From IMG/VR virus record IMGVR_UViG_3300025327_001276, positions 1 to 33,851 of that record: a stretch of DNA of 33,851 bases; one strand, written 5' to 3'. A program made the position numbers and the translations under genes. The stretch is from a virus. Every line of letters starts with the position of its first letter. Position 1 is the stretch's first letter. Under the pieces are notes generated by a model. The model was given only the letters and a program-made list of their open reading frames with translations, did not search any database and was not told where the DNA came from. Below, one piece after another: positions 1,887-33,156 of this stretch.

Positions 1887-2130
1887 TTCTTTTATTAAGT
1901 TCTTTTTTTATAACAGTCTTCATTTTGGATTTAATATCATTAATTAAACTTTCTGGATGCACTATAAGAGTGCCGTCCTGTAATTCTACACCATGAGCAC
2001 GGTCTGAGGTAATAAGATAATGTTTAAGATAGTTTATATTTATATTTAAAACACTAGCAGCTTTCTCTTTTGAATAGAATTTTTCAAGCTTAATACGCTT
2101 TAAGCGTGGGCAACGCTTATAAAAAGCCAT
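1867..2130 (-). CDS. Small HTH-like protein, convergent with terminase
   Basis: This 87-residue basic protein is not firmly recognised. The segment FYSKEKAASVLNININYLKHYLI, broken here as FYSKEKAASVL then NININYLKHYLI, has the spacing of a helix-turn-helix. It is followed by GVELQDGTLIVHPESL, resembling the wing of excisionase/MerR-like small DNA-binding proteins, and the C-terminus is Lys/Arg-rich. I chose the ATG at 2130 because it lies one base after the stop of the upstream gene (2132), a termination-reinitiation arrangement. The longer frame to 2184 would overlap that gene heavily. Its last 20 bases overlap the end of the terminase gene. A small-terminase or regulatory role is possible but is inference only. 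Confidence 0.65.
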   Translation of the reverse strand: MAFYKRCPRLKRIKLEKFYSKEKAASVLNININYLKHYLITSDRAHGVELQDGTLIVHPESLINDIKSKMKTVIKKELNKRIKRKGI

Positions 2131-2131
2131 T

Positions 2132-2428
2132 TCAATCAATTGGGTTAATGAAATCGCTCTTGAAGCTGATACTTTTAGCACCATATTGCTGCATTAAAAT
2201 GTTGCGTCTTTCTTTAATCGCATTAAACGTAGCGGCTGAGAGCTTACACACTTGTCCAATAGTAGTTACTTTGCCCCAAGCAGCATGCATAGCATGTAAT
2301 ATCCCATTAGCAAATCTTAGATCTGCCTCAACAATATCTTCTATGGTAGAATCACGATGCACAGGAAGCGGCTCTTCAATACTAGCTAACGGATCATCTA
2401 AGTCTGTTTCTACTGGTATTAAAGCCAT
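2132..2428 (-). CDS. Hypothetical small phage protein
   Basis: The 98-residue product begins MALIPVETDLDD, has an acidic N-terminal third, and then a helical segment around EADLRFANGILHAMHAAW and KLSAATFNAIKERRN. I do not recognise the family. An upstream in-frame ATG at 2443 exists, but the ATG at 2428 has an AAAGGA Shine-Dalgarno about five bases upstream on the minus strand, so I use it. Its stop is one base from the start of the next minus-strand gene, so the two form a coupled pair. The pair is divergent from the methyltransferase gene at 2481 and convergent with terL. A link to packaging is suggested only by position. Confidence 0.7.
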   Translation of the reverse strand: MALIPVETDLDDPLASIEEPLPVHRDSTIEDIVEADLRFANGILHAMHAAWGKVTTIGQVCKLSAATFNAIKERRNILMQQYGAKSISFKSDFINPID

Positions 2429-2449
2429 AGTTTCCTTTGACATAGAAAC

Positions 2450-2479
2450 AGTATAACAGCTTCATTGGAGTTTAAACAA
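2450..2479 (-). promoter_or_regulatory. Candidate promoter for the minus-strand pair
   Basis: Read on the minus strand, TTGTTT (2479-2474) and TATACT (2455-2450) are separated by 18 bases. They lie just upstream of the ATG at 2428. The -10 is good and the -35 is weak. Confidence 0.35.
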
Positions 2480-2480
2480 T

Positions 2481-3017
2481 ATGCACGATAAACTAGATTT
2501 TGTATGGGAAGCAGCACAAAAATTTAAAATAAAAGCCAAGAAAGACGAGTTTCTAGCACTTATTAGAATAATGCATGGAAGAAAAGTAAAGTCTATATTA
2601 GAAATTGGCACTGGCACTGGCGGTTCGGCACGTGGATTCCTTGAACTATTTAATAGAGTTACAAGTGTGGATAAGATAAAATATGTAGGAGTCGATGCAC
2701 TGATAAAGAAATTCGGCTGGCGTTTTAATTTTATATTGGGGGACAGTCGTGACGTAGAAGTTATTGGAGAATTTGACGTACTTTATATAGACGGTGATTA
2801 CGAATATGCTGGAGTCAGGAATGATTTTGAAAGATTTAGTCCACTAGTTAAACACGGTGGATTAGTAATATTTAATAATATAGTAAAAAATGATAACGAA
2901 GCAATTAAAGGGCATGAAGTATGGAAACTATGGGAAGCACTAAAAATGCAATACATGCACATAGAATTAGTATATGAAGATCCTAAATGGGGTGGGGTGG
3001 GGGTGCTATTTGTATAG
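2481..3017 (+). CDS. Class I SAM methyltransferase-like protein
   Basis: The 178-residue protein has a Rossmann methyltransferase motif I at residues 41-48 (EIGTGTGG), a VDAL strand near 71-74, and the pattern LYIDGDYEYAGVRNDF at 101-116. That pattern is typical of Methyltransf_24/CmcI-like enzymes (iDGdH-Y-gv--D). In that family a later strand usually ends in HD, a metal or catalytic position. Here the equivalent reads FNN (131-133), so activity or substrate may differ. A GGAG Shine-Dalgarno lies at 2467-2470, about ten bases before the ATG. The gene stands alone, divergent from the minus-strand pair and followed by a large noncoding block. The substrate cannot be told from sequence. A host- or DNA-modifying role is inference. 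Confidence 0.75.
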   Translation: MHDKLDFVWEAAQKFKIKAKKDEFLALIRIMHGRKVKSILEIGTGTGGSARGFLELFNRVTSVDKIKYVGVDALIKKFGWRFNFILGDSRDVEVIGEFDVLYIDGDYEYAGVRNDFERFSPLVKHGGLVIFNNIVKNDNEAIKGHEVWKLWEALKMQYMHIELVYEDPKWGGVGVLFV

Positions 3018-3057
3018 GTGCATATTCAATCAAATAGAATGCTTTATATAGGTATAA

Positions 3058-3138
3058 CAATCAAAAAGATTGCTTGTGTATGAGGGAAGCTGCGGAATGA
3101 GTAGTTCAATATAAGTATTTCAATCAAAAAGATTGCTT
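3058..3138 (+). repeat. 18-base direct repeat containing CAATC-N5-GATTG palindrome
   Basis: The 18-mer CAATCAAAAAGATTGCTT occurs at 3058-3075 and 3121-3138, 63 bases apart. Each copy contains the perfect palindrome CAATC/GATTG with a five-base centre. A degenerate third copy is at 3024-3044. The TTGCTT at the end of the second copy could act as a -35, with a poor TAAAAA 17 bases later. These resemble the operators at 3463 and 4545. Confidence 0.7.
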
Positions 3139-3258
3139 ATATATGACGATGTGAGTAAAAAATACGGATGTACATATAGAGTACATACGGGGGTGGTCTG
3201 AATTATCCTACTCATCTTGAATTCCTATAAAAAAGAAATTGTTTATTTTTAACCTTCC

Positions 3259-3327
3259 AGTCCTAATCTAATCAAAGTCTAGATCACGAGAATTATTATT
3301 CTCGGGATGTGATGCATAGTAAGGACT
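3259..3327 (+). other. Nested stem-loop (possible structured RNA or cis site)
   Basis: An outer stem pairs AGTCCT (3259-3264) with AGGACT (3322-3327). An inner arm pairs GATCAC with GTGATG imperfectly (3282-3287/3309-3314). A perfect seven-pair hairpin, CGAGAAT/ATTCTCG, closes on TATT (3287-3304). There is no T-run, so it is not an intrinsic terminator, and it lacks the T-arm of a tRNA. Its function is unknown. Confidence 0.5.
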
Positions 3328-3462
3328 TAGCTAATAACACACATAATATATACATATAATACATTGAATATACTGAATTAATATACTAATAAGTGCGAGG
3401 CTTGCGGCATGAGCTAAATGTGTGAGTGTTTTTATGTGTGAGTGTGAATAATTTTTATTATT

Positions 3463-3504
3463 TCAATCAAAATGATTGACACATATTAAAAATTATGCGA
3501 AAAT
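3463..3504 (+). promoter_or_regulatory. Promoter with overlapping palindromic operator
   Basis: The palindrome TCAATCA-AAA-TGATTGA (3463-3479) overlaps a consensus -35 TTGACA at 3476-3481. Seventeen bases later is GAAAAT (3499-3504), preceded by TG as in an extended -10. It should drive the gene cluster from 3564. A repressor on the palindrome would cover the -35. Confidence 0.65.
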
Positions 3505-3563
3505 GTTTTTATTGCAAATAATGCAATAATTTAATCAATTAAATCAATCAGAAGGATTAAAAA

Positions 3564-4118
3564 ATGAATAAAAAATTAAAATTAGAAATTGGCTGCTACT
3601 TAGACATGAGTATTAGAGATAATCGTAATGTACTTGGTTTTTTGCATGACTTACTAAATGAAAGTCTAACAATACAATTAGCTATAAAATGCAATAAAAC
3701 AAAGGCTTTATTACTTGAAATAGGTAAATTTATTAGTTCAACTAATAAAGAACTAAATGAAATATATCGTAATTCTAATGTAGATTCTGATCTAGATGGT
3801 GAACTAGAATCTATTGCAGATGAGTTAGTCACTGAAGCATGTGATATACTTAATACCTACACTCCAGACTATACATACCTAGGTTTTAACGATGGATCTT
3901 TTGGCTTATGGTGCAGCATAGAAAATGTAAAATATGACTTTGACGGTATAATTTTGCAAGGTCTCGATACTCATTATCTTATACCAAAAGACTTTATGCA
4001 TCTTGTACCAGAAAAATTTACTGGACACATATTATTAACTGATAATTCTAATAATCCATTAGAATTATTATTAAAAACAGAAAATGTTGAAAAAATAGAA
4101 GTAATTTGGCGTATATAA
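3564..4118 (+). CDS. Hypothetical protein, first gene after the early-type promoter
   Basis: The 184-residue product is not recognised. It starts MNKKLKLEIGCYLDMS, has a helical N-terminal half ending in an acidic stretch near residues 72-90 (SDLDGELESIADELVTEA), and a more beta-like second half rich in aromatic and aliphatic residues. No catalytic motif, signal peptide or membrane segment is seen. AGAAGGA lies about six bases before the ATG, a strong Shine-Dalgarno. It is the first gene downstream of the promoter/operator at 3463-3504, which fits an early, possibly host-takeover, protein. That role is positional inference only. Confidence 0.75.
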   Translation: MNKKLKLEIGCYLDMSIRDNRNVLGFLHDLLNESLTIQLAIKCNKTKALLLEIGKFISSTNKELNEIYRNSNVDSDLDGELESIADELVTEACDILNTYTPDYTYLGFNDGSFGLWCSIENVKYDFDGIILQGLDTHYLIPKDFMHLVPEKFTGHILLTDNSNNPLELLLKTENVEKIEVIWRI

Positions 4119-5463: not shown

Positions 5464-5813
5464 ACAAAGCAAAAGAACTAGCAGAATCGTGGATAAATGG
5501 TAATTTATCGCATGTGTTTAGTGAATTAAATTACGACTTTGATCTTATATTTGATGTATCGGTTCAATTGGACACTCAAAACAAAATTAACTTTCTTACA
5601 TTTTGTGTGCAACAATTAATTAATAAACCGTATAAATCTGAAAATGAAATATCTCACACAGTCAATATCTCACATATTAAAGCTCTAAATACTAAACTCT
5701 CTAAAGCACAAGCCAGAGAAGTATTAAATCACCTCAATAACAATATTGATGATGAATTCGGACTAACCGACACTACAATAAAGTGCGCTATTGAAGAATT
5801 ATTTGATTTATAA
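5460..5813 (+). CDS. Hypothetical protein
   Basis: The 117-residue product is unrecognised. It is mostly helical, with NKAKELAESWINGNLSHVF at the start and SKAQAREVLNHLNNNIDDEF near the end. It starts inside the stop of the preceding gene (ATGA overlap), and the next gene follows within 14 bases. No motif, membrane segment or signal peptide is seen. It belongs to the plus-strand early-type cluster driven from 4540. Confidence 0.65.
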   Translation: MNKAKELAESWINGNLSHVFSELNYDFDLIFDVSVQLDTQNKINFLTFCVQQLINKPYKSENEISHTVNISHIKALNTKLSKAQAREVLNHLNNNIDDEFGLTDTTIKCAIEELFDL

Positions 5814-5826
5814 AAGGAATAAATAT

Positions 5827-6582
5827 ATGAATAACAATATATTAACTGAACTAATTGACATTATGCATAGTGATTTACATGCTTGTTTTTTTGACGCTGA
5901 ACAGCATCCTAAAAACACATTTCAACCGACTAGTAATTTGTCTGATTATAGTAAAATAGTTTATTATGCACCTTCATTATTAGTTTACGGCGATTACACT
6001 GGATGCAGTGTAACACGTTCTAATCATGAAGTTTTTTATGAAAATTTTAAAAATATGCCATGGCTGGAAGTGTATAAAGAGATGCATAATTCTAAATCAT
6101 TACTTATAAATATAAAGCTATTTGACAGCATAGAAGCCCTTAAAACTTTAAAAGACTTAGAAAATTATCCATTAATTAATGAAGAACACCATAGTAATCT
6201 TGAAAATGATTTAGAATGGGAAGCCTGGGAATCAATTTATAGATCTGATTTTAGCTATAAATTAGTAGCTCATTTAGAAAATAATACTGATTTTAGCCCT
6301 AAGTTTATAGAAAAAGTAGAATTATTATGTGATGCAGCACTATTTAGCTTATTTCAAACCCTAAAAGAAACAACTAACACATATTTTTCACATGAAACTG
6401 GCTGTGAGTGTTCAATTGATCTAGATAGGCTTATTAATCCCATTGGCACAAGTAAAACTTTTGATATTTATCATAATTGTGAGCCTATAACTCTCTTAGA
6501 TGTTACTTTATCAGAGCAAACACTGGATAAAATCATAGATCCGTATAAATATCATGATCCTAAGCAAGTAAAACTTTTATAA
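5827..6582 (+). CDS. Hypothetical protein, end of early-type cluster
   Basis: The 251-residue acidic protein is not recognised. The frame opens at 5791, but that overlaps the previous gene. The ATG at 5827 follows AAAGGA by about nine bases and gives MNNNILTELIDIMHSD, so it is preferred. Aromatic residues are frequent (WEAWESIYR, NTYFSHETGCECSIDLDR). No catalytic pattern is clear. The 3' end overlaps the convergent minus-strand gene by six bases. Confidence 0.7.
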   Translation: MNNNILTELIDIMHSDLHACFFDAEQHPKNTFQPTSNLSDYSKIVYYAPSLLVYGDYTGCSVTRSNHEVFYENFKNMPWLEVYKEMHNSKSLLINIKLFDSIEALKTLKDLENYPLINEEHHSNLENDLEWEAWESIYRSDFSYKLVAHLENNTDFSPKFIEKVELLCDAALFSLFQTLKETTNTYFSHETGCECSIDLDRLINPIGTSKTFDIYHNCEPITLLDVTLSEQTLDKIIDPYKYHDPKQVKLL

Positions 6583-6996
6583 ACTCATATTACTTTTATT
6601 AGGTAATTTAAAATTAATACCCCAATCCCAGTCTTTAGGCTTATATATAGTTGCGTTTATATTTAATTTAAAAGCTTTTACTTTCCAATTTAACATTAAA
6701 GCTGCTGTAATCATTACGCCATTAGAAATATAAGAGCTTAACCAGCGCTCACAAACATGTTTTAAGCTATAAGAACTAAAGTTATTACCTTTACTTAATA
6801 TTTTAGGCTGAAGTTTAGCATACAGCAAAAATAACATAGCTGATTTTATGCTCGATTCGGCAGTTATTAGTTTATTTCTTGAAACTAAAAACTCCTCTTT
6901 AAATAAATCCTCCCCCCAAGAAAAACCAAAAATATGTAAGTTTTCATATATAGAAAGCACTTCATAGAGTTTATAGTTAAATTTCTTATTCATCAT
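6577..6996 (-). CDS. Hypothetical protein beside the candidate origin
   Basis: The 139-residue protein has a central patch, SYSLKHVCERWLSSYISNGV followed by MITAALMLNWK. This resembles a motif (SYxLKHxxE...YxSNGxxIxAAxxxGF) in uncharacterised proteins of bacterial mobile elements, which I recall but cannot name. The frame extends to a TTG at 7035 that lies inside the first iteron. I prefer the ATG-ATG at 6996/6993, although neither start has a clear Shine-Dalgarno. It is convergent with the 5827 gene and downstream of the primase on the same strand, across the iteron block. A replication-related role is inferred from position only. Confidence 0.6.
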   Translation of the reverse strand: MMNKKFNYKLYEVLSIYENLHIFGFSWGEDLFKEEFLVSRNKLITAESSIKSAMLFLLYAKLQPKILSKGNNFSSYSLKHVCERWLSSYISNGVMITAALMLNWKVKAFKLNINATIYKPKDWDWGINFKLPNKSNMSL

Positions 6997-7020
6997 AGGT
7001 TTAATTGACTTAAACCAGGT

Positions 7021-7423
7021 TGTCCACCCTTGCAAATTGACTTAAGTTATTCATAATAATGTAATTTTCCGAAAATTTGTCCACCCTGAGGACAGGCTAG
7101 GACACTCTGATTCTTATAACCTATTGATATTGTTCCACTGTCCACCCTGTCCAGGCTATTCGGGCATCTCTTTCCTATATATAAATATATACACTATATG
7201 TCCACTCTATAGTATACCTATATAATATTTTATATAGAATAAGGTTAAGTAATATAAGACACAGCCTGGACACACATACTTAACTTATTGATAAATATAA
7301 ATATGTTTGTCCAGTCCAGGCTAGCCCAGGCTAAAAAAATCGCTTAGCCTGGACACGGAAACACGGTTACATATATATTTATCAATAAGTTATGTGTTAA
7401 GCGAAAAAAGTACAGCCTGGACA
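7021..7423. repeat. Iteron cluster with inverted repeats (candidate replication origin)
   Basis: Ten-base units built on TGTCCA recur. TGTCCACCCT is at 7021, 7078 and 7139. TGTCCAGGCT is at 7148. TGTCCACTCT is at 7199. The inverse AGCCTGGACA is at 7263, 7346 and 7414. A compound TGTCCAGTCCAGGCT is at 7308-7322. Left copies face right and most right copies face left. An 18-base perfect inverted repeat, AACTTATTGATAAATATA, sits at 7282-7299 and 7374-7391. A nine-pair hairpin, CCAGGCTAA/TTAGCCTGG, lies between them at 7326-7352. AT-rich DNA fills the gaps. The block adjoins the primase-helicase gene, as phage and plasmid origins often do. Confidence 0.7.
7037..7065 (+). promoter_or_regulatory. 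Promoter inside the iteron block, facing the primase 3' end
   Basis: TTGACT (7037-7042) and TGTAAT (7060-7065) are spaced by exactly 17 bases, a near-consensus sigma70 promoter on the plus strand. It would start at about 7072, traverse the iterons and then run antisense to the primase gene. No plus-strand gene follows for 3.4 kb, so a priming or antisense RNA is a reasonable guess. Confidence 0.55.
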
Positions 7424-7429
7424 CGGAAA

Positions 7430-9955
7430 TTATTTTATTAATAAAACCCGCATTTTTACGCAATAAAACGTGGCTTTCACCTTATTTTTGTGTGTTCGTA
7501 ACTTTAACACTTTTTGCTTAGATGTTAAAATAGTGCCCAGTTGTTGGATACTTATCGGTGTTAAGCTTGAATTTTTATTATACCATTCTTGGATACTATT
7601 TAATGAGTGCCAGTCGTTTTTGTTGTTTTCGTCACCTTTTATTATTAATTCTGCTGCTGTTTTCTCATGTATAAAGTTATCTGCCCTGTATTCAATAAGC
7701 TTTACCGTACATTCTTCAGGATAATTAAAACTATCTAAAATTTCCTCACCGTTTTCATCTTTTTTGATTTCTAAGTAGCGTACTAGCCCTTCTATTGCCC
7801 AATTTAATATACCTGAGCTTTCTTCTCTTATCATTTTTTGTAATAATGCTTCTTTAGCTGCATTAGGGGTAAATTCTCTATTGTAAGGGATAATGCATAG
7901 TCGTCGAAGCAGTGCTTCACTTTCGCTCTGTGTTTTAGGTATATCATTACAGCCTATATGGAATTTAGCTCTATTTAGTACTTCCTCCTCTTCACCAAAG
8001 AGCTTTCTTGATAATACATATGCTCCTAGTAGACTTTTAACTAGTGCCTCTCCCCATACCGAATCTGTGTCAACTTCATCCATAATAGCAATTCTTTTAC
8101 CTACTAATTTAACTCCTATTCTAAGTGGATCTTTTTGTATTCCATATTTTGTAGTGCTTAAAGATTTACAGTCTAAGACAGCGGCATAATTATCAAGTAA
8201 ATAACGTAAGCAATATAACACAATACTTTTGCCGTTTGAGCCACTGCCGCAGTGTATGAATAACTTTTGTGCTGCAATAGAGGCAGTTAAACTATAGCCG
8301 AATACTTCTTGCAGAAAAGAAATCATAGCTTCTGGTGCTTCGTTATTTTCAAAAATCTCAGCTAAGAATTGTTTCCATTTTGGGCATTTTGCCGAAGCAT
8401 CAAAAGAGATTTTTGTTTTTAAAAGCAGATAGTCATTGGATTTTGGTGCTCTAATTGTGCCTTCAATTAAATTTACATAGCCATTTTTGCAGTTAAGATG
8501 TGCTTTATCACTATCAAAATCATCTAAATTCTTTGTTTCAATATTAAATACTGAGTTTTTTAACTGTGCCAGCACTCCTGATATACGATTATTTGATAAA
8601 TATTTTTCTGTTTCTTTATCGTACTTAAGTGTAGAAAAGCCTTTTTTATCGTAACATCTTTCTTTAAACTTTTGTTCAGTGAAAACATCTTTAACGCATT
8701 CAATTGCAAACGCATTAACTACGCTTGTATTGTCTTTTTGCGAATACCAATTATTATCATGTTGGTTAAAAGCATAAATTACGTTGCCTACCGCGCATAA
8801 ATACTCCTTATAACGTTGTACTATTCTTGCTTTAATAGACACGTCTGATATTGTGCCTGTCATTATGTGTGGGTCGCTATAATCGTATTTAAAGCTCTCA
8901 CACCGCTTTTCTTCACTCACACCACCTTGACTGCCCTTTTCCTCATAATGTCCGTTCTGCGGCTCGCTTTTAGCCTCTAATCCTCTTGTTATAGCGGAAG
9001 TTATAGTTTTAGTGATTTCTTCTTGACTAAGTGGTTTCTCAAAATGAGAGTTAGCATATTGTGCCAGTGCCGCAACTTCCTCACACAGCCTTTTTTTACT
9101 TTTCATAGCTTTATTTTTCCTAATATATGTAGAAAGTATACTATATAAACTATTGTTTCTATGACCGATTTTGCCTAGTTCAGTAGCTAGTGCTGTGTCA
9201 ATTGATTCACTAAAACAGCCGTTTGATTTATTTTCAAATGCTCGTGTTATTAAATTATGTATCTTTTTTTTATCTTTACTTTGTGTTAAAATTGCTTTCT
9301 TGCCTTTTCCTAATATCCCTGGAAATATCGCAGTTAAATCAGTTAGGACATAGGGTTTATGAGGTAGGTCGCAGTCGTATAGAGTCGGCATAAAACGCAC
9401 ATCGGCGACACCTTTACATATGCGCTCACATCCAGGCACACGAACTGTGTGCTGCACCTGTGCTAAATTTAGATCACCATCAAACTTGGCAGCAATTCCT
9501 GCTTGCAATAGTTTCCAATTTTCTAGGCTGATTCCTGGATCAATTTTCCAGTAAAAGTGATAGCGTTTCGGCGACGTTTCGACTACAAAATTTACCTCAT
9601 ACCGTACTATTTGTTCCCACTCCTTTCTATCCAATTCTCTATCAATATCCAAACATAATACCCTTGGTGCTACCATGTGCTCACGACGTCTGCCTTTAAA
9701 ATTGGTTTGGTTTAAGCACACGTGCAGCGTGAACGGTTCACATATTCTAGCTAAGTATTCACTCACTTCCAAAGACTGTAGCTGCACTGTGCCACAACCT
9801 GGAAGCACTTTTTTACTTTCTAAATCCATAAAGCTAAAGCAGAGCACATCACAATCAATGACACTTAACAGTTTTAAGTATCTCAGTATTTCTTCTATTT
9901 TATAATTGACTTTGTTATTTCTAGGTGTTATAGATGATTCATACTTATCATTCAT
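7430..9955 (-). CDS. AEP primase / D5-like SF3 helicase
   Basis: This 841-residue replication protein primes and unwinds DNA. The N-terminal archaeo-eukaryotic primase domain has LCLDIDREL (D103, D105), TSPKRYHFYWKI (H133) and VRVPG (171-175), like RepB/PrimPol-type phage primases. A PriCT-like helical segment spans about 260-325. A D5_N-like region then leads to an SF3 helicase with Walker A GSGSNGKS (570-577), Walker B RIAIMDEVD (621-629), a sensor asparagine in HIGCNDIP (N670) and an arginine finger around R684/R685. Full length, no defect seen. AAGG lies about nine bases before the ATG at 9955. It is the only replication gene here on the minus strand, reading toward the iteron block at 7021-7423, its likely target. 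The initiator function is inferred. Confidence 0.92.
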   Translation of the reverse strand: MNDKYESSITPRNNKVNYKIEEILRYLKLLSVIDCDVLCFSFMDLESKKVLPGCGTVQLQSLEVSEYLARICEPFTLHVCLNQTNFKGRRREHMVAPRVLCLDIDRELDRKEWEQIVRYEVNFVVETSPKRYHFYWKIDPGISLENWKLLQAGIAAKFDGDLNLAQVQHTVRVPGCERICKGVADVRFMPTLYDCDLPHKPYVLTDLTAIFPGILGKGKKAILTQSKDKKKIHNLITRAFENKSNGCFSESIDTALATELGKIGHRNNSLYSILSTYIRKNKAMKSKKRLCEEVAALAQYANSHFEKPLSQEEITKTITSAITRGLEAKSEPQNGHYEEKGSQGGVSEEKRCESFKYDYSDPHIMTGTISDVSIKARIVQRYKEYLCAVGNVIYAFNQHDNNWYSQKDNTSVVNAFAIECVKDVFTEQKFKERCYDKKGFSTLKYDKETEKYLSNNRISGVLAQLKNSVFNIETKNLDDFDSDKAHLNCKNGYVNLIEGTIRAPKSNDYLLLKTKISFDASAKCPKWKQFLAEIFENNEAPEAMISFLQEVFGYSLTASIAAQKLFIHCGSGSNGKSIVLYCLRYLLDNYAAVLDCKSLSTTKYGIQKDPLRIGVKLVGKRIAIMDEVDTDSVWGEALVKSLLGAYVLSRKLFGEEEEVLNRAKFHIGCNDIPKTQSESEALLRRLCIIPYNREFTPNAAKEALLQKMIREESSGILNWAIEGLVRYLEIKKDENGEEILDSFNYPEECTVKLIEYRADNFIHEKTAAELIIKGDENNKNDWHSLNSIQEWYNKNSSLTPISIQQLGTILTSKQKVLKLRTHKNKVKATFYCVKMRVLLIK

Positions 9956-10262: not shown

Positions 10263-10334
10263 GGTTTAGTAGCAAAGTGGTAATGCATTGGATTGCAAAC
10301 CCAATATTCGTGAGTTCGATTCCCACCTAAGCCT
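10263..10334 (+). tRNA. tRNA-Cys (GCA)
   Basis: A cloverleaf fits well. The acceptor GGTTTAG (10263-10269) pairs with CTAAGCC (10327-10333) with one G-U. The D arm is GCA...TGC. The anticodon loop is TTGCAAA with GCA at 10295-10297. The T loop is TTCGATT. The discriminator is T and no CCA is encoded. Two A-C mismatches stand out, one closing the anticodon stem (31-39) and one inside the T stem. It sits between a terminator and the 10352 promoter with no clear promoter of its own. It directly precedes a run of Cys-containing small genes. Confidence 0.8.
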
Positions 10335-10480: not shown

Positions 10481-10744
10481 ATGTCAGAAGCTTTTAAAAT
10501 CGGAGAAAAAGTATTTATTAGAACTGTGACGTATCATTGCACAGGCGAAATAACTGAAATAGTAGGTGGTTTTATATTTTTAAAAGATGCTGCTTGGGTA
10601 GCAGATTCAGGACGTTTTGGTGAAGCTATTGAGACGGGCACTTTAAGTGAAGTCGAATGTGTTACGTGCCCAATTAGAGTTTCAATTGCATCTATTGTTG
10701 ACGTGTATGAATGGCGACATCCTTTGCCAAGAGAAACTAAATAA
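10481..10744 (+). CDS. Conserved small phage protein of unknown function
   Basis: The 87-residue protein opens KIGEKVFIRTVTYHCTGEITEIVGG, given here as KIGEKVFIRTVTYHCTGEI and then VGGFIFLKDAAWVADSGRF, and ends SIVDVYEWRHPLPRETK. I recognise this pattern (IGE-yLIRTVTyh-TG ... LeDAAWIADtGRF ... AIVDa-eWrHaLPr) as a widespread phage family without known function. In my recollection it commonly precedes a short gene for a low-complexity protein, as it does here. AAAGG precedes the ATG by about seven bases. It follows the attenuator at 10421-10467 and shares its stop with the next start (TAATG). Confidence 0.75.
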   Translation: MSEAFKIGEKVFIRTVTYHCTGEITEIVGGFIFLKDAAWVADSGRFGEAIETGTLSEVECVTCPIRVSIASIVDVYEWRHPLPRETK

Positions 10745-10980
10745 TGATTTATTTTATAATTAAAAAGCCTTATTATTGTTCTAGATCAAAAAGCGCTTAT
10801 TTTAAAATGTGTGGTTCAGTCTGTAGAGTACATAAATATGAGTATAAATTTACTTCTTTTTGTGCATCTCGACTAGATTCCAGATGGAGAGTTTGTTCTA
10901 GATCTTACTCTAGATTTAAAGATGGATTTTTTGGTTTTGCATATTCTAATTCACTTTGTAATTCAGGTAGACATTTATGA
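10744..10980 (+). CDS. Small Ser/Arg/aromatic-rich protein, paralogue A
   Basis: The 78-residue product alternates polar and aromatic residues, for example CSRSKSAYFK, YEYKFTSFC and RWRVCSRSYSRFKDGFFGF. By hand alignment it is identical at 53 of 78 positions, with no gaps, to the product of 11299, and most differences are conservative (K/R, I/V, S/T, F/Y). Cys 27, 40, 51 and 72 are shared. It starts in the stop of the 10481 gene and its stop overlaps the next start, so it is translated by coupling. No signal peptide or membrane helix is seen. The alternating pattern could be beta-strand or low-complexity. In related phages I recall Gly/Tyr/Ser repeat proteins at this position. Function unknown. 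Confidence 0.75.
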   Translation: MIYFIIKKPYYCSRSKSAYFKMCGSVCRVHKYEYKFTSFCASRLDSRWRVCSRSYSRFKDGFFGFAYSNSLCNSGRHL

Positions 10981-11120
10981 TGCACTTTATACGCAATTAT
11001 AAAAATAATAGGTTTTCATATTCCCACACATATCATTGGCAGTATAGATGGTCATATTCAAGAAGCGGAATGTGGGAGTTACCATATAGCGATTCTACTT
11101 CTCAAAGCTTAAAACCATGA
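10977..11120 (+). CDS. Micro-protein of the coupled cluster
   Basis: The 47-residue open frame starts MMHFIRNYKNNRFSYSHTYH and contains WQYRWSYSRSGMW, the same aromatic/Ser/Arg alternation as its neighbours, and ends SQSLKP. It begins with ATGA overlapping the stop of paralogue A and ends in a TGA overlapping the ATG at 11117. It has no Shine-Dalgarno of its own. The tight overlaps on both sides and the shared composition are the evidence that it is real. Confidence 0.6.
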   Translation: MMHFIRNYKNNRFSYSHTYHWQYRWSYSRSGMWELPYSDSTSQSLKP

Positions 11121-11302
11121 CTCATTTAGTAGCTAATAAATTGAAACCCTGGATTTGGTCAAGATCATTTTCTAGACAAAAATTTCTATCTACTTCATTA
11201 AATTGGTCTTTAACTAACCCAAAACCTTGGTCATGGATGTGCTCTAACTGCAAGTCTAAAATGTGGAAAAGATATAAATCTAATTCTGGTGAAAGATTAT
11301 GA
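11117..11302 (+). CDS. Trp/Ser-rich small protein of the coupled cluster
   Basis: The 61-residue product has six Trp residues (PWIWSRSFSRQ, LNWSLTNPKPWSWMCSNCKS, KMWKRY) and a CSNC pair. It lies between the two paralogues, overlapping its neighbours by four bases at each end (ATGA). It is not similar enough to the paralogues to align end to end, but shares the W/Y-S-R-S alternation. Function unknown. Confidence 0.65.
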   Translation: MTHLVANKLKPWIWSRSFSRQKFLSTSLNWSLTNPKPWSWMCSNCKSKMWKRYKSNSGERL

Positions 11303-11535
11303 TTTATTTAATGGTTAAAGAGTCTTATTATTATTCTAAATCTAGAAGTGCTTACTTTAAAATAGGTACTTCAATTTGTAGAACACATAACTATGAATAT
11401 AAATTCAGTTCTTTTTGTAGGTCTAAAATAGATTCGAGCTGGAGAGTTTGTTCAAGATCTTATTCTAGATTTAAAGACGGATTTTATGGGTGTGCCTATT
11501 CTACTTCACTGTGTGAATCAGGAAGAAACGTATAA
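11299..11535 (+). CDS. Small Ser/Arg/aromatic-rich protein, paralogue D
   Basis: The 78-residue product is the same length as, and collinear with, the 10744 product (53 of 78 identical). The most conserved block is WRVCSRSYSRFKDGF (48-62 in both). Cys 27, 40, 51 and 72 are retained, and a further Cys is at 65. It starts in the stop of the 11117 gene (ATGA), and its TAA overlaps the ATG of the helicase gene. The conservative substitutions argue for selection on the protein after a duplication of the unit. Confidence 0.75.
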   Translation: MIYLMVKESYYYSKSRSAYFKIGTSICRTHNYEYKFSSFCRSKIDSSWRVCSRSYSRFKDGFYGCAYSTSLCESGRNV

Positions 11536-12833
11536 TGCTGCAAACTCCTTTAAAACTTTTTACATTTCAGGAAGACACGGTAGGTCAAATACTTTATTTT
11601 CTAAAAGAGAAAAATAAAGAAAGGTCTTGCTACTGTGCTTTGGAAATGGGACTGGGTAAAACTATATGTGCTATTCGTGCTGCCAAGTATTTAAATGCTG
11701 AAAATATTCTTATAATTTGTCCCGCCATAATGCGCTATACTTGGGAAGCTGAGATTATGAAATGGGGTGTTAGTGCGGACATTGATGTTATATTAGCATC
11801 TAAGCAGACGCTGCTTTATAAAAAGTACACTATTGTGTCTTACGACATTGCTCGTTCTGATGTATTTATAAATAAATTGCCAGCTAAAATTGATTTACTT
11901 ATTCTCGATGAAAGTCACTACATAAAAACCAGAAAAACAAAACGAACTGTAGCAATATTAGAAAAAATTTGGCATCTAGCTGCTTATCGCCTAGCATTAT
12001 CGGGCACTCCTTTCACGCAATCAGTCGCAGACGGATATACTCTTTTTAATAAAATGCTGCCTGAAAAATTTACTAATTACTATAGTTTTATTAATGAATA
12101 TGCTTACCAGAAACCGACACCTTGGGGCGTTAAAATTATTGGTGCTAGGAACACTAAGAAACTTTCTAAAATAATTAAAAGTAATTTCTATATAAGACTA
12201 AAAAAAGATGAAGTCTTAAAAGATTTACCGCCTAAGATTTATACTGAAATAAAACTTGGTGCTGAGTATTTACTTAAAACTACTAAAGAAGAAAACGATA
12301 GATTAGAAACTGACATTGCGGATTATGCAAAAACTGCGGTTGTGCCTCATTCTTTAGCAGAGCATCGCCGCCTTCAAGCAGAGCTTAAAGTGCCTGCTAT
12401 AGCTGAGTTTGCAAGTAATTTATTAGAAAATAATATACCAGTAGTGCTGTTTGCTTATCATAGAGAATTCATAAGAAAACTAAGTGCTGCATTGGCTAAA
12501 TTTAAACCAGTAATAATTACTGGTGACACAAGTGCTAAAGACAGGTTTGATTATGTAGAAGCTTTTCAAGAAGCTAAAACTAATTTATTTATTGGGCAGT
12601 TTACTGCGGCCGGCACTGGTATAACTCTAACTCGCGCTAGTCACGTAATATTAGCAGAACTAGATTGGAGTCCTGCGGTTATAAACCAAAGTGTAGATAG
12701 GCTGCATCGGATAGGACAGAAAAATTCTGTTAATATTTATTACTTTGTAGTAAAAGATTCATTAGAAGAATATATTGTAAAAGTATTAATTAATAAAACA
12801 GAAACATTTAAAGCAGTACTTGATAGGAAATAA
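11535..12833 (+). CDS. SNF2-family (SF2) DNA helicase/translocase
   Basis: The 432-residue protein has all the main SNF2 motifs: motif I EMGLGKT (37-43), motif II DESH (125-128), motif III SGTP (156-159), a motif V region in QFTAAGTGITLTRASHVI, and motif VI QSVDRLHRIGQ (385-395). It is a compact SMARCAL1-like enzyme of the sort that accompanies phage DUF2800/DUF2815/PolA modules. It probably remodels forks or branched DNA during phage replication. Its ATG overlaps the TAA of the micro-gene at 11299, so its translation depends on that cluster. No defect is seen. Confidence 0.92.
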   Translation: MLQTPLKLFTFQEDTVGQILYFLKEKNKERSCYCALEMGLGKTICAIRAAKYLNAENILIICPAIMRYTWEAEIMKWGVSADIDVILASKQTLLYKKYTIVSYDIARSDVFINKLPAKIDLLILDESHYIKTRKTKRTVAILEKIWHLAAYRLALSGTPFTQSVADGYTLFNKMLPEKFTNYYSFINEYAYQKPTPWGVKIIGARNTKKLSKIIKSNFYIRLKKDEVLKDLPPKIYTEIKLGAEYLLKTTKEENDRLETDIADYAKTAVVPHSLAEHRRLQAELKVPAIAEFASNLLENNIPVVLFAYHREFIRKLSAALAKFKPVIITGDTSAKDRFDYVEAFQEAKTNLFIGQFTAAGTGITLTRASHVILAELDWSPAVINQSVDRLHRIGQKNSVNIYYFVVKDSLEEYIVKVLINKTETFKAVLDRK

Positions 12834-26710: not shown

Positions 26711-26924
26711 ATTTTTAATTGAATCAATAGAAGATGAAGAAAGATTAGAAGCCATTATACGTGCTGAAGACCTTAAATATGCTTTAAAAGAAGTTATAGG
26801 AGAAATAGATAAATTAGCTAAAACGTATTCTATGAGTTTACTAGGTGAAGCTATAGTAGAATGTCAAAAAAAATGTTATAATATAGTAGAGAATTTAGAA
26901 TTAAAATATTTTGTTAATATTTAA
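26694..26924 (+). CDS. Hypothetical helical protein (TTG start)
   Basis: The 76-residue acidic product (MKTKLEFLIESIEDEERLEA...) is predicted all-helical, with two Cys near the end (ECQKKCYN). The only reasonable start is TTG at 26694, with AAGGA about nine bases upstream, overlapping the nuclease gene by 17 bases. It is the last plus-strand gene, and its end overlaps that of the convergent giant gene by 11 bases. It is unrecognised. Confidence 0.55.
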   Translation: MKTKLEFLIESIEDEERLEAIIRAEDLKYALKEVIGEIDKLAKTYSMSLLGEAIVECQKKCYNIVENLELKYFVNI

Positions 26925-26931
26925 AATATTT
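26904..26931. terminator. AT-only bidirectional terminator candidate
   Basis: AAATATTTT (26904-26912) pairs with AAAATATTT (26923-26931), followed on the plus strand by AATTTTT. It lies exactly where two convergent genes end. The stem is weak, being A-T only. Confidence 0.35.
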
Positions 26932-29900
26932 AATTTTTGCATTACGTCTTGCTTCTTTAGTCATTTTTTCTATTTCATCTTGTAATTTTTCACCAGTTAA
27001 TTTTTTATTCATAAGTCTATTTATACCTTGTTTTATCTGTGGTCCAGCTAATTTAGTAAGTTCATATATTTCATCATAAGTAAGAACATCATAAGCTGCT
27101 CGACCTAAAGTTTCTACTCTTTGTTTTTTAAGTCTTTCTTCTTTTATCTCTTGCACAGCACTTTTACCTGAAATACCAATTGACGTATTAGTTCCCATTT
27201 GAGGCACATAAGCACCGTTTTCTACTAAAAATTTCCACTCTGGATTTACTGTTTTAGTAGTAGCAAATCTGCCAGCAATTGGAGTTACAAAAGTAGATAA
27301 TGCGGGATAATCTTTTAAAAATTGATAAGTTTCAATTGGTTCGCCAAAAGCATTAAGTGCTGGTTTACCAGCATATCCTTGAATAAAGGGCAGTCCTCTA
27401 ACTGTAGCTGCTAAAAATGATTTTGGGTCAGTTTCAAATGCGTCAGTAGTTTTTGCTATATCATTTAAAAGTCCTTTAAAAGGTATAAGTGATTTTGTTG
27501 GATTAAGAACTAAATCTCTTGGAGATTTTTCACCACGAATAGTATCGACTAAATTAGCTGCTCCTTTTAAAAAGCCAGTGTCAAGTACTACTTTACCTAC
27601 ATTTGTAAGACCTATTAGAAATTTTTCTCCTGGATCTTTTTTATTAAAGGAAGGACTATACCTATAAGCATCATGAAGTTCTCCGATCCAAGCTAAAAGC
27701 GGCGCAAGGGGTGTTTCTGAATATCTTAAATAAGTATCACCTATTTTAATTGTATAAGGTTTAAATCCAGCACTTTTTAAAGTAGCAGCTTCACCTTTAT
27801 TTGTCGGACCTCTAGCATATATAGAAAATTTAGGATCAGGATCATCTAAATATTTTTCAGCTTCTTTATAAATTACAGCTCCTAAAGTAGTTCCTATTAT
27901 GCCAGCACCTAATCTTTGAAGTCTTTCTTCTGGTCCAAATGTAATTCCTGATGTTTTGCCTCCAAGTTTTTGCTGCATAAAATCAGTAATATGTTCACCA
28001 AGAGCTGCTCTTGCTATTCCAATAGGAGAAAAATCTAAACTTTGTGAAAGCACATTTGAAACTACATCAACAAATGGAAATATAATTTTAAGGGGCGATA
28101 TATATTCCATACCAGCTTTAAGCATTTTAGCAATACCTCCTAAAGAACCTGCTGGTGGCTCAGTGAAAGTAATTAATTGCCCAAACCTTTTTGATATTTC
28201 TTTTATAGCTTCTGAACGTAAATTATCAATAATTTCATAAGCTCTTAAGTTAACATCTCTATCTTTAAATTTAAGTCCTGAAGCTTCCCATTCACGAGTA
28301 GCTTGTTCTTTCGCGTTAATAAATTCATTAGTTGAATTATGAAGTTCTTCAGATATTTTAACTCTTAATGCTTCACCACGAAGTCCTTCTTGTTTAAGTG
28401 CACGTTTTGTTGCAAAATAAGCTTGTCCTTCTTTTCCAGTTACATAGAAAAAAGCATCAGCACTATTCATAGCTTTAAAAACAAATGATAATTTATTATT
28501 TAAAAAGTTTAAAGGTTTAGCCATTAAATTATTAAATAATTTATTCTCAAAACCAGTTATAGGTATTATTGTTTTACCTAATATTCTATTTTCATATTTA
28601 CCTGAAATTGGATATTTTCCAGTAAAAACTCCTTTTGCAGATTCAATTGCTTTTGGTGCTGCTTTGACAATACCTTTAATAAATGCATCAAAATTTTTAG
28701 GATTAGTTATAGCAGTAGCTAATCCTCTTCCAAATAAGTTCATACCAGAGCCAGCTATATTTATAGTTTGAGTGGAAAGACCACTTAACATATTAGCATA
28801 CCAATAATATGAAAGTGCTTTAGAAAGTGGTGCTTTTATTTGAGTAGAAATTAAATTAAGTGCTTCTCTTGTAAGAGCATCGACAACTAAATTACTTGTT
28901 TCTTTAATTTCATTAGTTGGTATTTTTGCTTCAGTGAATACTTCTTGTATTTTATTATGTATAGCTTTTATTTGCTCTTCTAGTTCAGGAGGTATTTCAA
29001 AATCTTTACCATTAAATTTTTTAAGATCTCGTTTAAACTTTTTAAGCATGCTTTCTCTACTCATAGAACTGAAAAGAGTAAAAGCTTGTACGCCTTGTCC
29101 AAGACGAGTTCCTTCTTCTGCCATTTTACCCACTAAATCAGCTTCCTTTGAAGTAAGTGCATCTATAGATTTACCTTCTTTTTTAGAAGTTTCAATCTGT
29201 CTTCTAAGTTCATTTATAATTTCAATACCGTAAGCAGTTCTATCTTGATAACTTAAATTATTATCAAAATCAGTTGCTTCATTTATATTTTCATCTATAG
29301 TTTCTGGTTTAATTTTTTCTCTAAAAAACTTAGCAGCTTCTTTAGGGCTTTTTGGTTTATAAGATTTTTTACCTATTTTTTCTGCTGTTTCAGCAGTCGT
29401 ACTTTCTGCTTCCCGAACACGTTTAGCAAATTTACGTTCTTTTTCACCTTCTTTAAATATTTTAGTTGGTTCTTTTTCTGGAGGCAATGTTTCTAAAAAC
29501 TCTTTACCACGTGTAGTATCAAAATAGTCATTTAACCAATTTTGTATAGATTCGCTTGGTCTAAATGCGTTTTTAAGTCCTGTCCAAAGTTCTTTAAATT
29601 TTTCTGCTATATTTTTATAAAAGCTATCAGCTAAAGTAGCTGGTCTTTTTTTTGGATTAAGTAAAAATTCAGAAACATTATTTGCAAAATATTCAGATTG
29701 ATGTAAAAGATAGGATTTTTCTTCAGGAGTTAAACTATTATAAGGCCTAGTATCTCCCTCAAAAATACTATCTGGTCCTATTATTTGAGATGCCCACTTA
29801 CTTACAGGATCGTTTAAATTGAGTCCTCCTATAGCTTTAGCTAAGTCTTTAGATACAGCATCTTTCATTTTAGGAGAAGCTTCTTTAAATGCACTAGTTT

Positions 29901-32900
29901 CAAGTACGTGTCCTATTTCATGAGAAGCTACTCTTGCTGATTCATAATTAAGATCTCCTTTACCTAATATAACAATTCCTTTGTCTCCTACAGTTTTACC
30001 AGCTCCTAATAAAGTTTTTGGAGTAAATTGTTTAGTAACTTCATCTACAAATTTTAATTGTTCTTCTGATAAATGTTTTCTAAATTCAGGATTATTTATA
30101 TCTTTAAGAGTAGCAAAAATAGTTTCTGGAAGTTTTAAAGCATGTGCCCAATAGTTAAGTAAATTTCTAAATTCTGGTTTAATTTCATCAGAATACATAG
30201 CTCCAGTTAATTTAGATCTTTTCATAGCTGGAATTTCTTCAGCTATTTTAGGAACTTCTATAGTCTTTTTAAATTGAAGCGGTTTTTCTATTATTCCTTT
30301 TTCTACACTTGGTATAAAACCACGTTCAGCTTCTGTACTTATAATCCCTTTAGCTGTATTTGCAGCATCTATAAAATAATCCATACCATTACTAAGTGCT
30401 TCACCTTTTTCATTTAATACATACCATTTTTTTTCAAATGGATAAATATAACGTTTACCTTTTTTAGTTTCTATGATTGCGCCTTGCTGCTCTCTACGAA
30501 CTTTTTTAGCTATTTCTTTTTCCTGAGATACTCTTTCAAGTTCTCCAATTTCTTTAGTAATAATTAAATCTTTAAGTTCATTTTCTTTAGCTTTAATATT
30601 ATTTAAATAACTTGGTCTACCTATTTGTTTAATATTATCATTTACTAATTTAAGTTCAGTTTTTAATTCAGATAAATTATTTTCTAAAGGATGTTCTTTT
30701 AAAAATGTATTTATAATAGCTACTTCATTTCTAACATCAGCTAATCTAGATTTTATAAGAGCTTTATTTGCTCCTTCTTTTTTAGAAGATCTTTTTAAAG
30801 TGGTCACCTCTTTAATAAGTTCTTGTCTTTTAGGTATAAGCTCATTTACAGTACCAATAATTGCTTTAGTTTGTGGTTCTAACTCTTTTATTTTTGTTTG
30901 AAGTTCAGTTCTTCTTGCTATTAAATTAGGTACTTCCTCTTGTTTTGGTATAACTGCTAATTCTTTAGAAAGCATTTCTATACGAGGAATAGTTCCTTCT
31001 GGTGCTTCGCCTGTTATTTCTTCTGGTACGTGTGTAGTTTCTTTAGTAACTTTAAGCCTTCCATCTGGAAGTATTTCTGGTACATAACCAAAATTAGCAA
31101 CTAGTTCAGGATCTACATCTGAAGGAGATCTAATTATAAAAGTTCTTTCCATATCAGGAGAATTTTGAAAGTCTTCAAATGATTTTGCAAGTCTTATCTG
31201 TTCATCAGGTTGAGGTAAATCTAACGCATGTAACTTTGTTCCTGCTTCAATTGGTGTAGGGTCTTCTGGATTATAAGGAAGTAATTTCTTACCTTCTGCT
31301 GACCAAGGAAGTTCTCTTGTTTCAGGAGCTGAAAGTGCTTTTTGTGCTTCAGGCACAGGAAAATCTTTATCTAAAACTTCTGGTCTAACTTCGTATTTTG
31401 AAGTAAAAGGATAAGTAACTGCACCAGCTATTCCCATAGCTAAAGCTGCTTTACCTGTTTCTTTTAAAGAAGTTACATCTTTATTAATTGCAGCACTTAC
31501 TCCTAAATCTTGTACATATTTTTGAGCAGCACCTGATGCTCCCATTATAAAAGCACCTTTTCCTGCTTGAGTGGCTATAGCTTTAGCTCTATTTACTGGT
31601 CCAAGACCTTTTATCCATGCTTTACCTCCGCCTGCTACTATAAAGTCTCCTAATGCTCCAGCAAGTACTGAAGGTTCGGCAAATAAAGCAGCTTTTAAAG
31701 CTTCGTTGTCAGTTACTCCTTCTTCTTTAGCTTGAAGATAGGCACTATTTGCTGTAAGTAATACATTTTGACTTATACCAAAAGCTACTGCTGCACGAGG
31801 CATATTAGCCGCTTGAAGAGCTTTGTAAGGAGCTATAAAAGAAAGTACATTTCCTACTGCTCCTGTCCATTCGGCTTGAAAAGTAGTAATAGGGCGACCA
31901 TATTCATCTCGCCTTATATAACCTTTATCATCTACAGAATAGACTGTGTTTCTAGCTGGATCTGGTAAAAGTTCTGAAGTTTTATCTATCATTTTAGCAA
32001 AATCTTCATATCCAGCTAATCTGAAAGGTGCTGCTGCCATACCTGATAAACCACTTACAAATCCTTTACCAACTAATGCTGCTGTACTAGTTCCCTCTGA
32101 AAGTGCAGTTCCTACTAGTCCTCTATTTCTATATCTTGAAGCTGTTTTTTCATTATCAATAGCCGCATCTAAATAACCAATAATGCCGTTTCCAAGAAGT
32201 ATAGGATCATAGCCACTAGATCGTAGCATTTCTAATTGTTTATTTTTCCAAGTATTTAATAATTTATCTGGATCTTTTTCATTACCCGTAATTTCTGGTA
32301 CAGAATTTATAAGTGATCCATAATTAGGCTTTTCATTAGGCATAGCACTATCCCAAATTTCAGTTGAAAGTTTTTGAATAGTATCTCTAGCTTTTTTATT
32401 CCAAAAAGTTTTTGAGTCATAAACTCTTTTAAGAACTTGCATTGACTGAGTAGCACTTAATGTATTAAAAGCAGGATCACTTATAATTGGATCTAATACT
32501 TTTTTTAAATCTTCTTCTGTACCTAATGTTTCACCAGAACTATAAGAATTTAAAGTATCTTCTTTTGAAGCATATAATTTTGATTTTACAGATGGTACAT
32601 ATTCTTGAGTTATATCTGGTAAATATGCTTTAATATCATCAAATGTTATATTTTTAGCATCTTTTATAGAATAACCAGCTTTTTCTATTGCATTGATTAC
32701 AGCAGGACTACCTGCATTATAAGCAGCTAATGCTAAATCTTCATTTCCTGAAAAACGTGTAATTTCATCTAATAATATATTTGCCCCAATATCTACATTT
32801 TCTTCTACATTATAAGGGTCTTCTCCTCCACCATATTTTTTCCAATTGGTAGGCATTATTTGCATAAGTCCTGTTTCACCAGAAGTTCCTTTAGCATTTG

Positions 32901-33156
32901 GGTTAAAACCTTCTTTTGTACCTGATTCTTGCTTTGCTATAGCTTTAAGTAAACTAGGTTCTAAATTATATTTATAAGCAGTTTCTTCTAAAGTAGTTTG
33001 GATAGGATCATTACTTATCGCTTCTTCTGTAGTTGAAATTTGAGTAGTAATAGGGCTTCCTTCCACTGAAGATACTGTATTTTGAAAATCTCCTTCAAAG
33101 TTTGTAACAAACTCATCAGGTGACAATAATTCAACACTTTCCTCTCCATTAGCCAT
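26914..33156 (-). CDS. Giant virion/ejection polyvalent protein: lytic transglycosylase plus HExxH
   Basis: The 2080-residue protein looks like an internal virion or ejection protein. Near the N-terminus is a lytic transglycosylase (SLT) domain: AIAKQESG with catalytic Glu77, GLMQI (96-100) and AYNAG (145-149). Hydrophobic, Gly/Ala-rich stretches follow (AFGISQNVLLTANSAYLQA region). A long coiled coil spans roughly 700-900. A zinc-protease-like ASHEIGHVLE has H1079, E1080 and H1083. A C-terminal region has the ANMLSGLSTQTINIAGSG and NSADAFFYVTGKEGQAYF segments seen in phage large polyvalent proteins. It would cut peptidoglycan and reach the cell interior during DNA entry. Its ATG lies inside the stop of the upstream gene (8-base overlap). 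No frameshift is seen. Confidence 0.85.
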   Translation of the reverse strand: MANGEESVELLSPDEFVTNFEGDFQNTVSSVEGSPITTQISTTEEAISNDPIQTTLEETAYKYNLEPSLLKAIAKQESGTKEGFNPNAKGTSGETGLMQIMPTNWKKYGGGEDPYNVEENVDIGANILLDEITRFSGNEDLALAAYNAGSPAVINAIEKAGYSIKDAKNITFDDIKAYLPDITQEYVPSVKSKLYASKEDTLNSYSSGETLGTEEDLKKVLDPIISDPAFNTLSATQSMQVLKRVYDSKTFWNKKARDTIQKLSTEIWDSAMPNEKPNYGSLINSVPEITGNEKDPDKLLNTWKNKQLEMLRSSGYDPILLGNGIIGYLDAAIDNEKTASRYRNRGLVGTALSEGTSTAALVGKGFVSGLSGMAAAPFRLAGYEDFAKMIDKTSELLPDPARNTVYSVDDKGYIRRDEYGRPITTFQAEWTGAVGNVLSFIAPYKALQAANMPRAAVAFGISQNVLLTANSAYLQAKEEGVTDNEALKAALFAEPSVLAGALGDFIVAGGGKAWIKGLGPVNRAKAIATQAGKGAFIMGASGAAQKYVQDLGVSAAINKDVTSLKETGKAALAMGIAGAVTYPFTSKYEVRPEVLDKDFPVPEAQKALSAPETRELPWSAEGKKLLPYNPEDPTPIEAGTKLHALDLPQPDEQIRLAKSFEDFQNSPDMERTFIIRSPSDVDPELVANFGYVPEILPDGRLKVTKETTHVPEEITGEAPEGTIPRIEMLSKELAVIPKQEEVPNLIARRTELQTKIKELEPQTKAIIGTVNELIPKRQELIKEVTTLKRSSKKEGANKALIKSRLADVRNEVAIINTFLKEHPLENNLSELKTELKLVNDNIKQIGRPSYLNNIKAKENELKDLIITKEIGELERVSQEKEIAKKVRREQQGAIIETKKGKRYIYPFEKKWYVLNEKGEALSNGMDYFIDAANTAKGIISTEAERGFIPSVEKGIIEKPLQFKKTIEVPKIAEEIPAMKRSKLTGAMYSDEIKPEFRNLLNYWAHALKLPETIFATLKDINNPEFRKHLSEEQLKFVDEVTKQFTPKTLLGAGKTVGDKGIVILGKGDLNYESARVASHEIGHVLETSAFKEASPKMKDAVSKDLAKAIGGLNLNDPVSKWASQIIGPDSIFEGDTRPYNSLTPEEKSYLLHQSEYFANNVSEFLLNPKKRPATLADSFYKNIAEKFKELWTGLKNAFRPSESIQNWLNDYFDTTRGKEFLETLPPEKEPTKIFKEGEKERKFAKRVREAESTTAETAEKIGKKSYKPKSPKEAAKFFREKIKPETIDENINEATDFDNNLSYQDRTAYGIEIINELRRQIETSKKEGKSIDALTSKEADLVGKMAEEGTRLGQGVQAFTLFSSMSRESMLKKFKRDLKKFNGKDFEIPPELEEQIKAIHNKIQEVFTEAKIPTNEIKETSNLVVDALTREALNLISTQIKAPLSKALSYYWYANMLSGLSTQTINIAGSGMNLFGRGLATAITNPKNFDAFIKGIVKAAPKAIESAKGVFTGKYPISGKYENRILGKTIIPITGFENKLFNNLMAKPLNFLNNKLSFVFKAMNSADAFFYVTGKEGQAYFATKRALKQEGLRGEALRVKISEELHNSTNEFINAKEQATREWEASGLKFKDRDVNLRAYEIIDNLRSEAIKEISKRFGQLITFTEPPAGSLGGIAKMLKAGMEYISPLKIIFPFVDVVSNVLSQSLDFSPIGIARAALGEHITDFMQQKLGGKTSGITFGPEERLQRLGAGIIGTTLGAVIYKEAEKYLDDPDPKFSIYARGPTNKGEAATLKSAGFKPYTIKIGDTYLRYSETPLAPLLAWIGELHDAYRYSPSFNKKDPGEKFLIGLTNVGKVVLDTGFLKGAANLVDTIRGEKSPRDLVLNPTKSLIPFKGLLNDIAKTTDAFETDPKSFLAATVRGLPFIQGYAGKPALNAFGEPIETYQFLKDYPALSTFVTPIAGRFATTKTVNPEWKFLVENGAYVPQMGTNTSIGISGKSAVQEIKEERLKKQRVETLGRAAYDVLTYDEIYELTKLAGPQIKQGINRLMNKKLTGEKLQDEIEKMTKEARRNAKIKYFKY

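Follow-up and report, generated by a model that had tools for sequence, protein, structure and literature searches.

Our analysis firmly supports the conclusion that many phages carry a gene with a predicted Sm-like fold coupled to tiny genes encoding basic repeats, and that the phage analysed here has an eroded, cysteine-bearing version of this locus. The locus recurs among phages with its coupling, it is constrained at the protein level, and the tails of its repeat proteins turn over fast. The window, that is, the whole 33,851-nt stretch of viral DNA under study (IMG/VR record IMGVR_UViG_3300025327_001276, positions 1 to 33,851), belongs to a virus record and is a fragment of a tailed phage, with genes for a terminase, a DNA polymerase, an exonuclease and a ssDNA-binding protein.

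In the window, the operon is opened by gene 10481 (10481-10744, plus strand, 87 aa), the Sm-like gene that defines what we call the 10481-type family. Four micro-genes of the SX type defined below follow on the same strand: m1 (10744-10980, 78 aa), m2 (10977-11120, 47 aa, with the motif ...RWSYSRSGMW...), m3 (11117-11302, 61 aa, with ...WIWSRSFSR...) and m4 (11299-11535, 78 aa). The next gene of the operon, also on the plus strand, encodes a SNF2-type helicase (11535-12833; SNF2-rel_dom, 4e-23). The first-pass annotation, made from the letters of the window, had described four overlapping micro-genes between 10481 and the helicase, and this arrangement was confirmed: all four frames are open from positions 10744, 10977, 11117 and 11299, the m1/m2, m2/m3 and m3/m4 junctions are 4-nt overlaps (ATGA), and single-nucleotide overlaps join 10481 to m1 (TAATG) and m4 to the helicase. 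It had also claimed that the helicase start depends on reading through the whole array. This received no support, and the helicase start has an AGGA-type site of its own, TCAGGAAGAAACGTATAATG. A tRNA-Cys(GCA) gene (10263-10334, plus strand, detected by ARAGORN and Rfam) lies directly upstream of the operon, whose m1 and m4 are Cys-rich; a link between this tRNA and the Cys-bearing micro-proteins is no more than possible.

The gap-free paralogy of m1 and m4 noticed at first reading was reproduced by alignment, with 53 of 78 residues identical and Cys 27, 40, 51 and 72 common to both. At the DNA level, 188 of 234 positions are identical (80%), and dN/dS is 0.37, not near 1 (Nei-Gojobori; dS 0.47, dN 0.18), the excess of silent changes having a Fisher p of about 0.003-0.008. 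Among viral contigs, m1 had direct homologues in four near-identical strains only (99.5-99.99% identity), which are uninformative on selection because they show zero differences inside the array. All four micro-proteins are basic (+12, +4, +11 and +8 for m1 to m4) and aromatic-rich. Ser-x-Ser exceeds its shuffled expectation in m1 (p=0.02), in m2 (p=0.0002) and weakly in m3 (p=0.07), giving a combined p of 4e-5, and m1, m2 and m4 are top-ranked among the small ORFs of the window by S+R+K+W+Y+F content. The four-frame set is therefore more than chance. A weak start tag (ATGAYKYAYTTW...) is moreover common to the four frames (p<=0.009 for m1-m3, m1-m4 and m3-m4, p=0.02 for m1-m2), which makes it probable that m2 and m3 also arose long ago as tandem copies; all four may stem from one micro-gene through such duplication. 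No match was obtained in Pfam or PHROGs with the micro-proteins as queries.

Gene 10481 and its relatives likewise matched no family in Pfam or PHROGs, with no LSM match, and a sequence search of the PDB returned nothing relevant. An AlphaFold2 model of 10481, produced from a 60-sequence alignment (pLDDT 93.9, pTM 0.85), was compared with the PDB by Foldseek. The best 50 matches were all Sm/LSm-fold entries, the top one being archaeal SmAP1 (1i8f; E 2.4e-3, probability 1.00, TM 0.58/0.72), and 3by7, whose description likens it to Sm/LSm-like RNA-binding proteins, was among the matches. The models of the 10481-type family and of DUF6948 (see below) both adopt the small bent beta barrel of the Sm fold, with E values of 2e-3 to 4e-3 at best. 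Because Pfam, PHROGs and PDB searches gave no sequence match to known Sm/LSm families, we describe 10481 as having a predicted Sm-like fold and do not assign it to the Sm/LSm proteins. With an Sm-fold E of about 2e-3, a TM of about 0.6 and no LSM match in Pfam, it may possibly play the role of another small SH3-like barrel.

A first scan for relatives of 10481 gave six loci and the annotated phage sequence MW202573.1; an alignment-based scan gave 91 relatives in viral contigs, 80 of which were kept, and 2 more in GTDB contigs. A second upstream gene family, termed family B and detected only through its repeat neighbours, is a clear homologue of 10481 (hhalign probability 96.6, E 6e-10). The sole cellular-genome contigs with a Sm-like gene, L095 and L096, come from Falkowbacteria and Woesearchaeota MAGs, and could be phage contigs that ended up in the bins of tiny groundwater cells. 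When 287 genomes from the phylum of the Falkowbacteria MAG were searched for a host, the seed genome alone matched; DUF6948 was searched for in 100 genomes from the phylum of the second MAG, a search in which the control queries gave no match.

We define SX micro-genes as (Ser-[Trp/Arg/Gly])n genes, and scored them with a strict detector as same-strand SX ORFs within -1000/+1500 of the Sm-like gene. Such an ORF was present in 63 of 72 loci. Among the nine negative loci, four are cut off at a contig end, and in four (L022, L026, L037, L056) the SX frames are eroded or short; L092 is the sole informative locus of the 72 that has no SX frame beside its Sm-like gene. The reverse search used the DNA pattern (GGTCNN)6GGTC and ignored the neighbours. 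For the W/R/G-mixed loci with enough upstream DNA, a Sm-like gene was found within 700 nt in 46 and was absent in 5, two of which (L138 and L149) do not resemble SX genes. As background, 981 kb of other viral DNA yielded 2 SX ORFs, both marginal. The suggestion of the first-pass annotation that a widespread and undescribed locus is present here in divergent form is thus supported by 80 viral and 2 GTDB relatives, with SX genes at all informative loci but one.

The SX frame typically overlaps the stop codon of the Sm-like gene or comes after it, as with MNAAIIRAGLDASWSWSWSWSRSRSWSWSGSRSGSRSRSGSGS in MW202573.1; when missing downstream, it sits just upstream or somewhat farther along. SX proteins are 25-109 aa long (median 68), have a charge of +2 to +21 (median +10) and are 15% aromatic, and the succession of W, R and G in them is almost random (ratios 0.78-1.15). 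Tandem arrays are common and comprise 2 to 14 copies (14 in L100, 8 in L142, 5 in L113, 2-5 in others), which share a constant, locus-specific N-terminal tag and have a reshuffled tail. In L100, a run of 8 copies lies at 5477-7056 and one of 6 at 7662-8955 (reverse-strand coordinates); the copies are mostly ATGA-coupled and start with the tag MITKRTRWRR; the tag of the L142 array is MRYLFEGS. Since tagged tandem copies are common elsewhere, the four-gene array of the window is ordinary for this locus type. The first reading has to be corrected in that the micro-genes are not a four-gene invention special to the window phage. The tails evolve faster than the Sm-like gene: between L084 and L086, the Sm DNA is 98% identical and aligned tail residues are 71% identical, with indels, and assembly errors in metagenome repeat regions may add to this apparent turnover. 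An ORF resembling a homing endonuclease was observed in L021 (3218-3781), between the Sm-like gene and the SX micro-gene.

The window has lost the pure SX repeat, and its micro-genes agree with an SX array beside a Sm-like gene in position, overlaps, charge, Ser-x-Ser excess and nearest relatives. In a tree of the Sm-like proteins, that of the window is nearest by path, without strong support, to those of L037, L044 and L047, whose micro-proteins are eroded, Cys-bearing and aromatic-rich (for instance MIKTQGTYWFGSWFKSRSWFKSRSGSWCWSRFGSECRARFWSQYGR), with Cys at scattered places. L044 shows the layout of the window, two ATGA-coupled copies and then a coupled gene. The gene after the array is methyltransferase-like in L037, terminase-like in L044 (as judged by eye), also other than a helicase in L047, and a helicase in the window. 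As this following gene varies between phages, the helicase cannot be counted as a fixed component of the system.

A scan for Gly-alternating frames uncovered a sister cassette. GX micro-genes, (Gly-[Tyr/Asp/Asn/Ser])n, were found at 56 loci, in most cases preceded by the gene of a DUF6948 or related protein, and they are acidic (median charge -7, against +10 for SX). The GX frame was directly behind DUF6948 in the four cultured phages examined, Iodobacter phage PLPE, Pectobacterium phage Abuela, Vibrio phage IKEMa6-1 and Chlorobiaceae phage CV-1-33. In PLPE (NC_011142.1, L339), an unannotated Gly-Tyr-Asp-Ser micro-gene was seen just behind YP_002128518.1. The first-pass annotation had mentioned Gly/Tyr/Ser proteins behind the same upstream gene as in the window; such proteins do exist, but mostly behind the sister DUF6948 or a related family of the same predicted Sm fold. 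The DUF6948 model (pLDDT 96.9) has Lsm3, Lsm1-7 and archaeal Sm proteins as best PDB matches, and its best 50 matches are Sm/LSm-fold entries. The 10481-type and DUF6948 (PF22253) families are alike in predicted fold, in the dipeptide-repeat micro-genes directly behind them and, in L068, in their N-terminal leader. They are unlike in the repeat, basic Ser-[Trp/Arg/Gly] versus acidic Gly-[Tyr/Asp/Asn/Ser], and their profiles match weakly (hhalign probability 21-45). The Pfam cut-off of DUF6948 was reached by the sister proteins of L309, L212, L280, L292 and L222, and not by 10481 or its relatives. Common descent of the two families is likely but, given the weak profile match, not proven.

The two cassettes are together in L068, in the order SX-SX-DUF6948-GX-Sm-SX-SX-SX (1909-3925), where both Sm-like proteins start with MGIDEMTLGELKEINKLFDG. 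L021 and L067 also have both, and a GX gene is directly upstream of the 10481-type gene in L020, L056 and L068. The window contains no GX gene, and a search with an 'RGW' sister protein matched no annotated phage. A tandem set of four Gly-[Tyr/Asn/Asp] micro-genes, starting with MNNNG or MSNG, is present in L098 (2367-3445, reverse strand).

What would such a locus do? We give about an even chance to the proposal that the micro-genes of the window are an eroded SX array, whose products would be disordered sticker-spacer partners of the Sm-like protein and build RNA-protein assemblies with it. The SX chains would be disordered, with Trp and Arg as stickers and Ser and Gly as spacers; made beside and together with the Sm-like protein, they would serve as its detached, multivalent RNA-binding tails. 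RNA and the Sm-like protein, possibly as a ring, would be gathered into ribonucleoprotein assemblies or condensates, which would protect or manage phage RNA. Eukaryotic SR/RS domains, the RGG tails of Sm proteins and FUS-type low-complexity domains combine Arg or aromatic residues with Ser or Gly beside an RNA-binding fold. SX chains resemble them, in composition only, by having stickers and spacers near a predicted fold of this kind, and differ from them in being separate arrayed micro-genes of phage origin, with strict two-residue alternation and Trp as the aromatic residue. In phages with both cassettes, DUF6948 and acidic GX could supply the complementary acidic chain. A broader proposal, tentative and on the unlikely side, is a two-part phage condensate system of oppositely charged hypervariable dipeptide polymers, each beside its own Sm-like ring protein, with function set by composition and not by order; it would give viruses of prokaryotes an equivalent of the SR/RGG and FUS-type proteins of RNA granules. 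If phages do pair a Sm-like protein with detached sticker-spacer chains, the natural arrays would offer dozens of versions that share one composition and differ in order, and the question of composition versus sequence in disordered proteins would become directly testable.

The alternative of greatest weight, although we think it unlikely, is that the Sm-like protein and the micro-proteins act on some machinery of the host, such as Rho, the ribosome or RNA polymerase, the variable tails evading or matching host factors. The Sm-like fold predicted for 10481, its place as the gene opening the operon and the fast turnover of the tails would all suit this, and there is a precedent in Rof, a Sm-like protein that inhibits Rho (PMC11018626). 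Against it, the near-random order of W, R and G is what composition, rather than a specific interface, would produce.

Next in weight comes the possibility that SX chains are membrane-active Trp/Arg peptides (antimicrobial-like, or used in lysis or superinfection exclusion) that merely neighbour the Sm-like gene. SX chains, with a charge of +2 to +21, resemble RW antimicrobial peptides in being short, basic and Trp/Arg-rich. We hold this to be improbable, given that SX is constantly tied to the Sm-like gene and not to lysis genes, that the chains of the sister cassette are acidic and built of Gly, Tyr and Asp, and that Ser at every second position leaves little hydrophobic moment. Third, in the window m1 and m4 have lost their repeats and kept their Cys and gap-free alignment, which is equally compatible with a small folded protein and a disordered chain. 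In this lineage they might have taken on a new function as folded proteins, perhaps metal-binding or disulfide-bonded via Cys 27/40/51/72, as could be argued from the purifying selection on these gap-free paralogues, their shared Cys and the tRNA-Cys just upstream. This too seems to us quite doubtful, because Pfam and PHROGs gave no match, m2 and m3 are devoid of the Cys pattern, and Cys is scattered in the related eroded forms (L037/L044/L047).

Codon usage bears on whether the repeat matters as peptide or as DNA. Within a locus, the dominant Ser codon accounts for a median fraction of 1.00, and in 45 of 52 loci its share is 0.95 or more. Which codon dominates differs between loci, and each of the six Ser codons does so somewhere (TCG 23, TCT 9, TCA 6, AGT 4, AGC 4, TCC 1), with a switch between TCN and AGY that is impossible in one silent step. 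Arg is encoded by AGG only in 24 of 47 loci and by CGG only in 17, a choice that tracks genomic GC (rho 0.69, p 4e-8), and GGG makes up 300 of the 309 Gly codons. Since Ser and Arg codons differ between phages, Arg according to GC, and the amino-acid pattern persists, the peptide pattern, and not the DNA, is constrained across phages. A DNA-level role of the repeat was rejected on this codon evidence, so that a selfish repeat or one acting as DNA or RNA (hexanucleotide microsatellite, recombination or structured-RNA element), with peptides as by-products, is the least probable reading and a very unlikely one: near-perfect hexamer repeats, a single Ser codon per locus and block duplications would suit it, but the unit DNA changes between phages (TCN vs AGY for Ser, AGG vs CGG for Arg) and the peptide stays, the window keeps a dN/dS of 0.37 and Ser-x-Ser with the repeat gone, and coupled starts and stops are kept in arrays of up to 14.

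Each locus is thus a homogenised hexamer, in which the sole variable site is the first base of the second codon (T, G, plus A or C). The fourth base, which is not used, would leave the Arg unchanged, so that free mutation at this base is not the source of the variety, and shuffling of a few unit types would be the simpler explanation for the W/R/G variety. Diversity-generating retroelements produce adenine-directed variation. SX units are like their targets in that one codon position varies and the rest is constant, and unlike them in that the variable base is T, G or one of A/C per locus, with no adenine signature. Block duplication accounts for much of the SX variety.

Sm/LSm proteins (SmAP1 1i8f, the Lsm1-7/2-8 rings, 3by7) have the fold predicted for 10481 and DUF6948, and 10481-type proteins differ from them in having no LSM match in Pfam, the likeness being one of modelled fold. 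To our knowledge, no companion repeat micro-genes have been described for Sm/LSm proteins. Sm-like proteins other than the families of cells themselves are known in kind (3by7), as is DUF6948 as a named family; the pairing with hypervariable dipeptide-repeat micro-gene arrays matches no system that we found. Our literature searches, which covered mainly papers outside subscription journals, returned no paper mentioning DUF6948 and, for phage dipeptide repeats and phage condensates, nothing on this locus. In a survey of low-complexity regions in prokaryotes and phages, aromatic residues and Arg are under-represented (PMC6821194). The locus type is spread over many uncultivated and some cultured phages, and annotation pipelines skip its genes or call them hypothetical, because low-complexity filters and family libraries miss them. 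Elsewhere in the window, on the reverse strand, an open frame of 2080 aa extends over positions 26914-33156.
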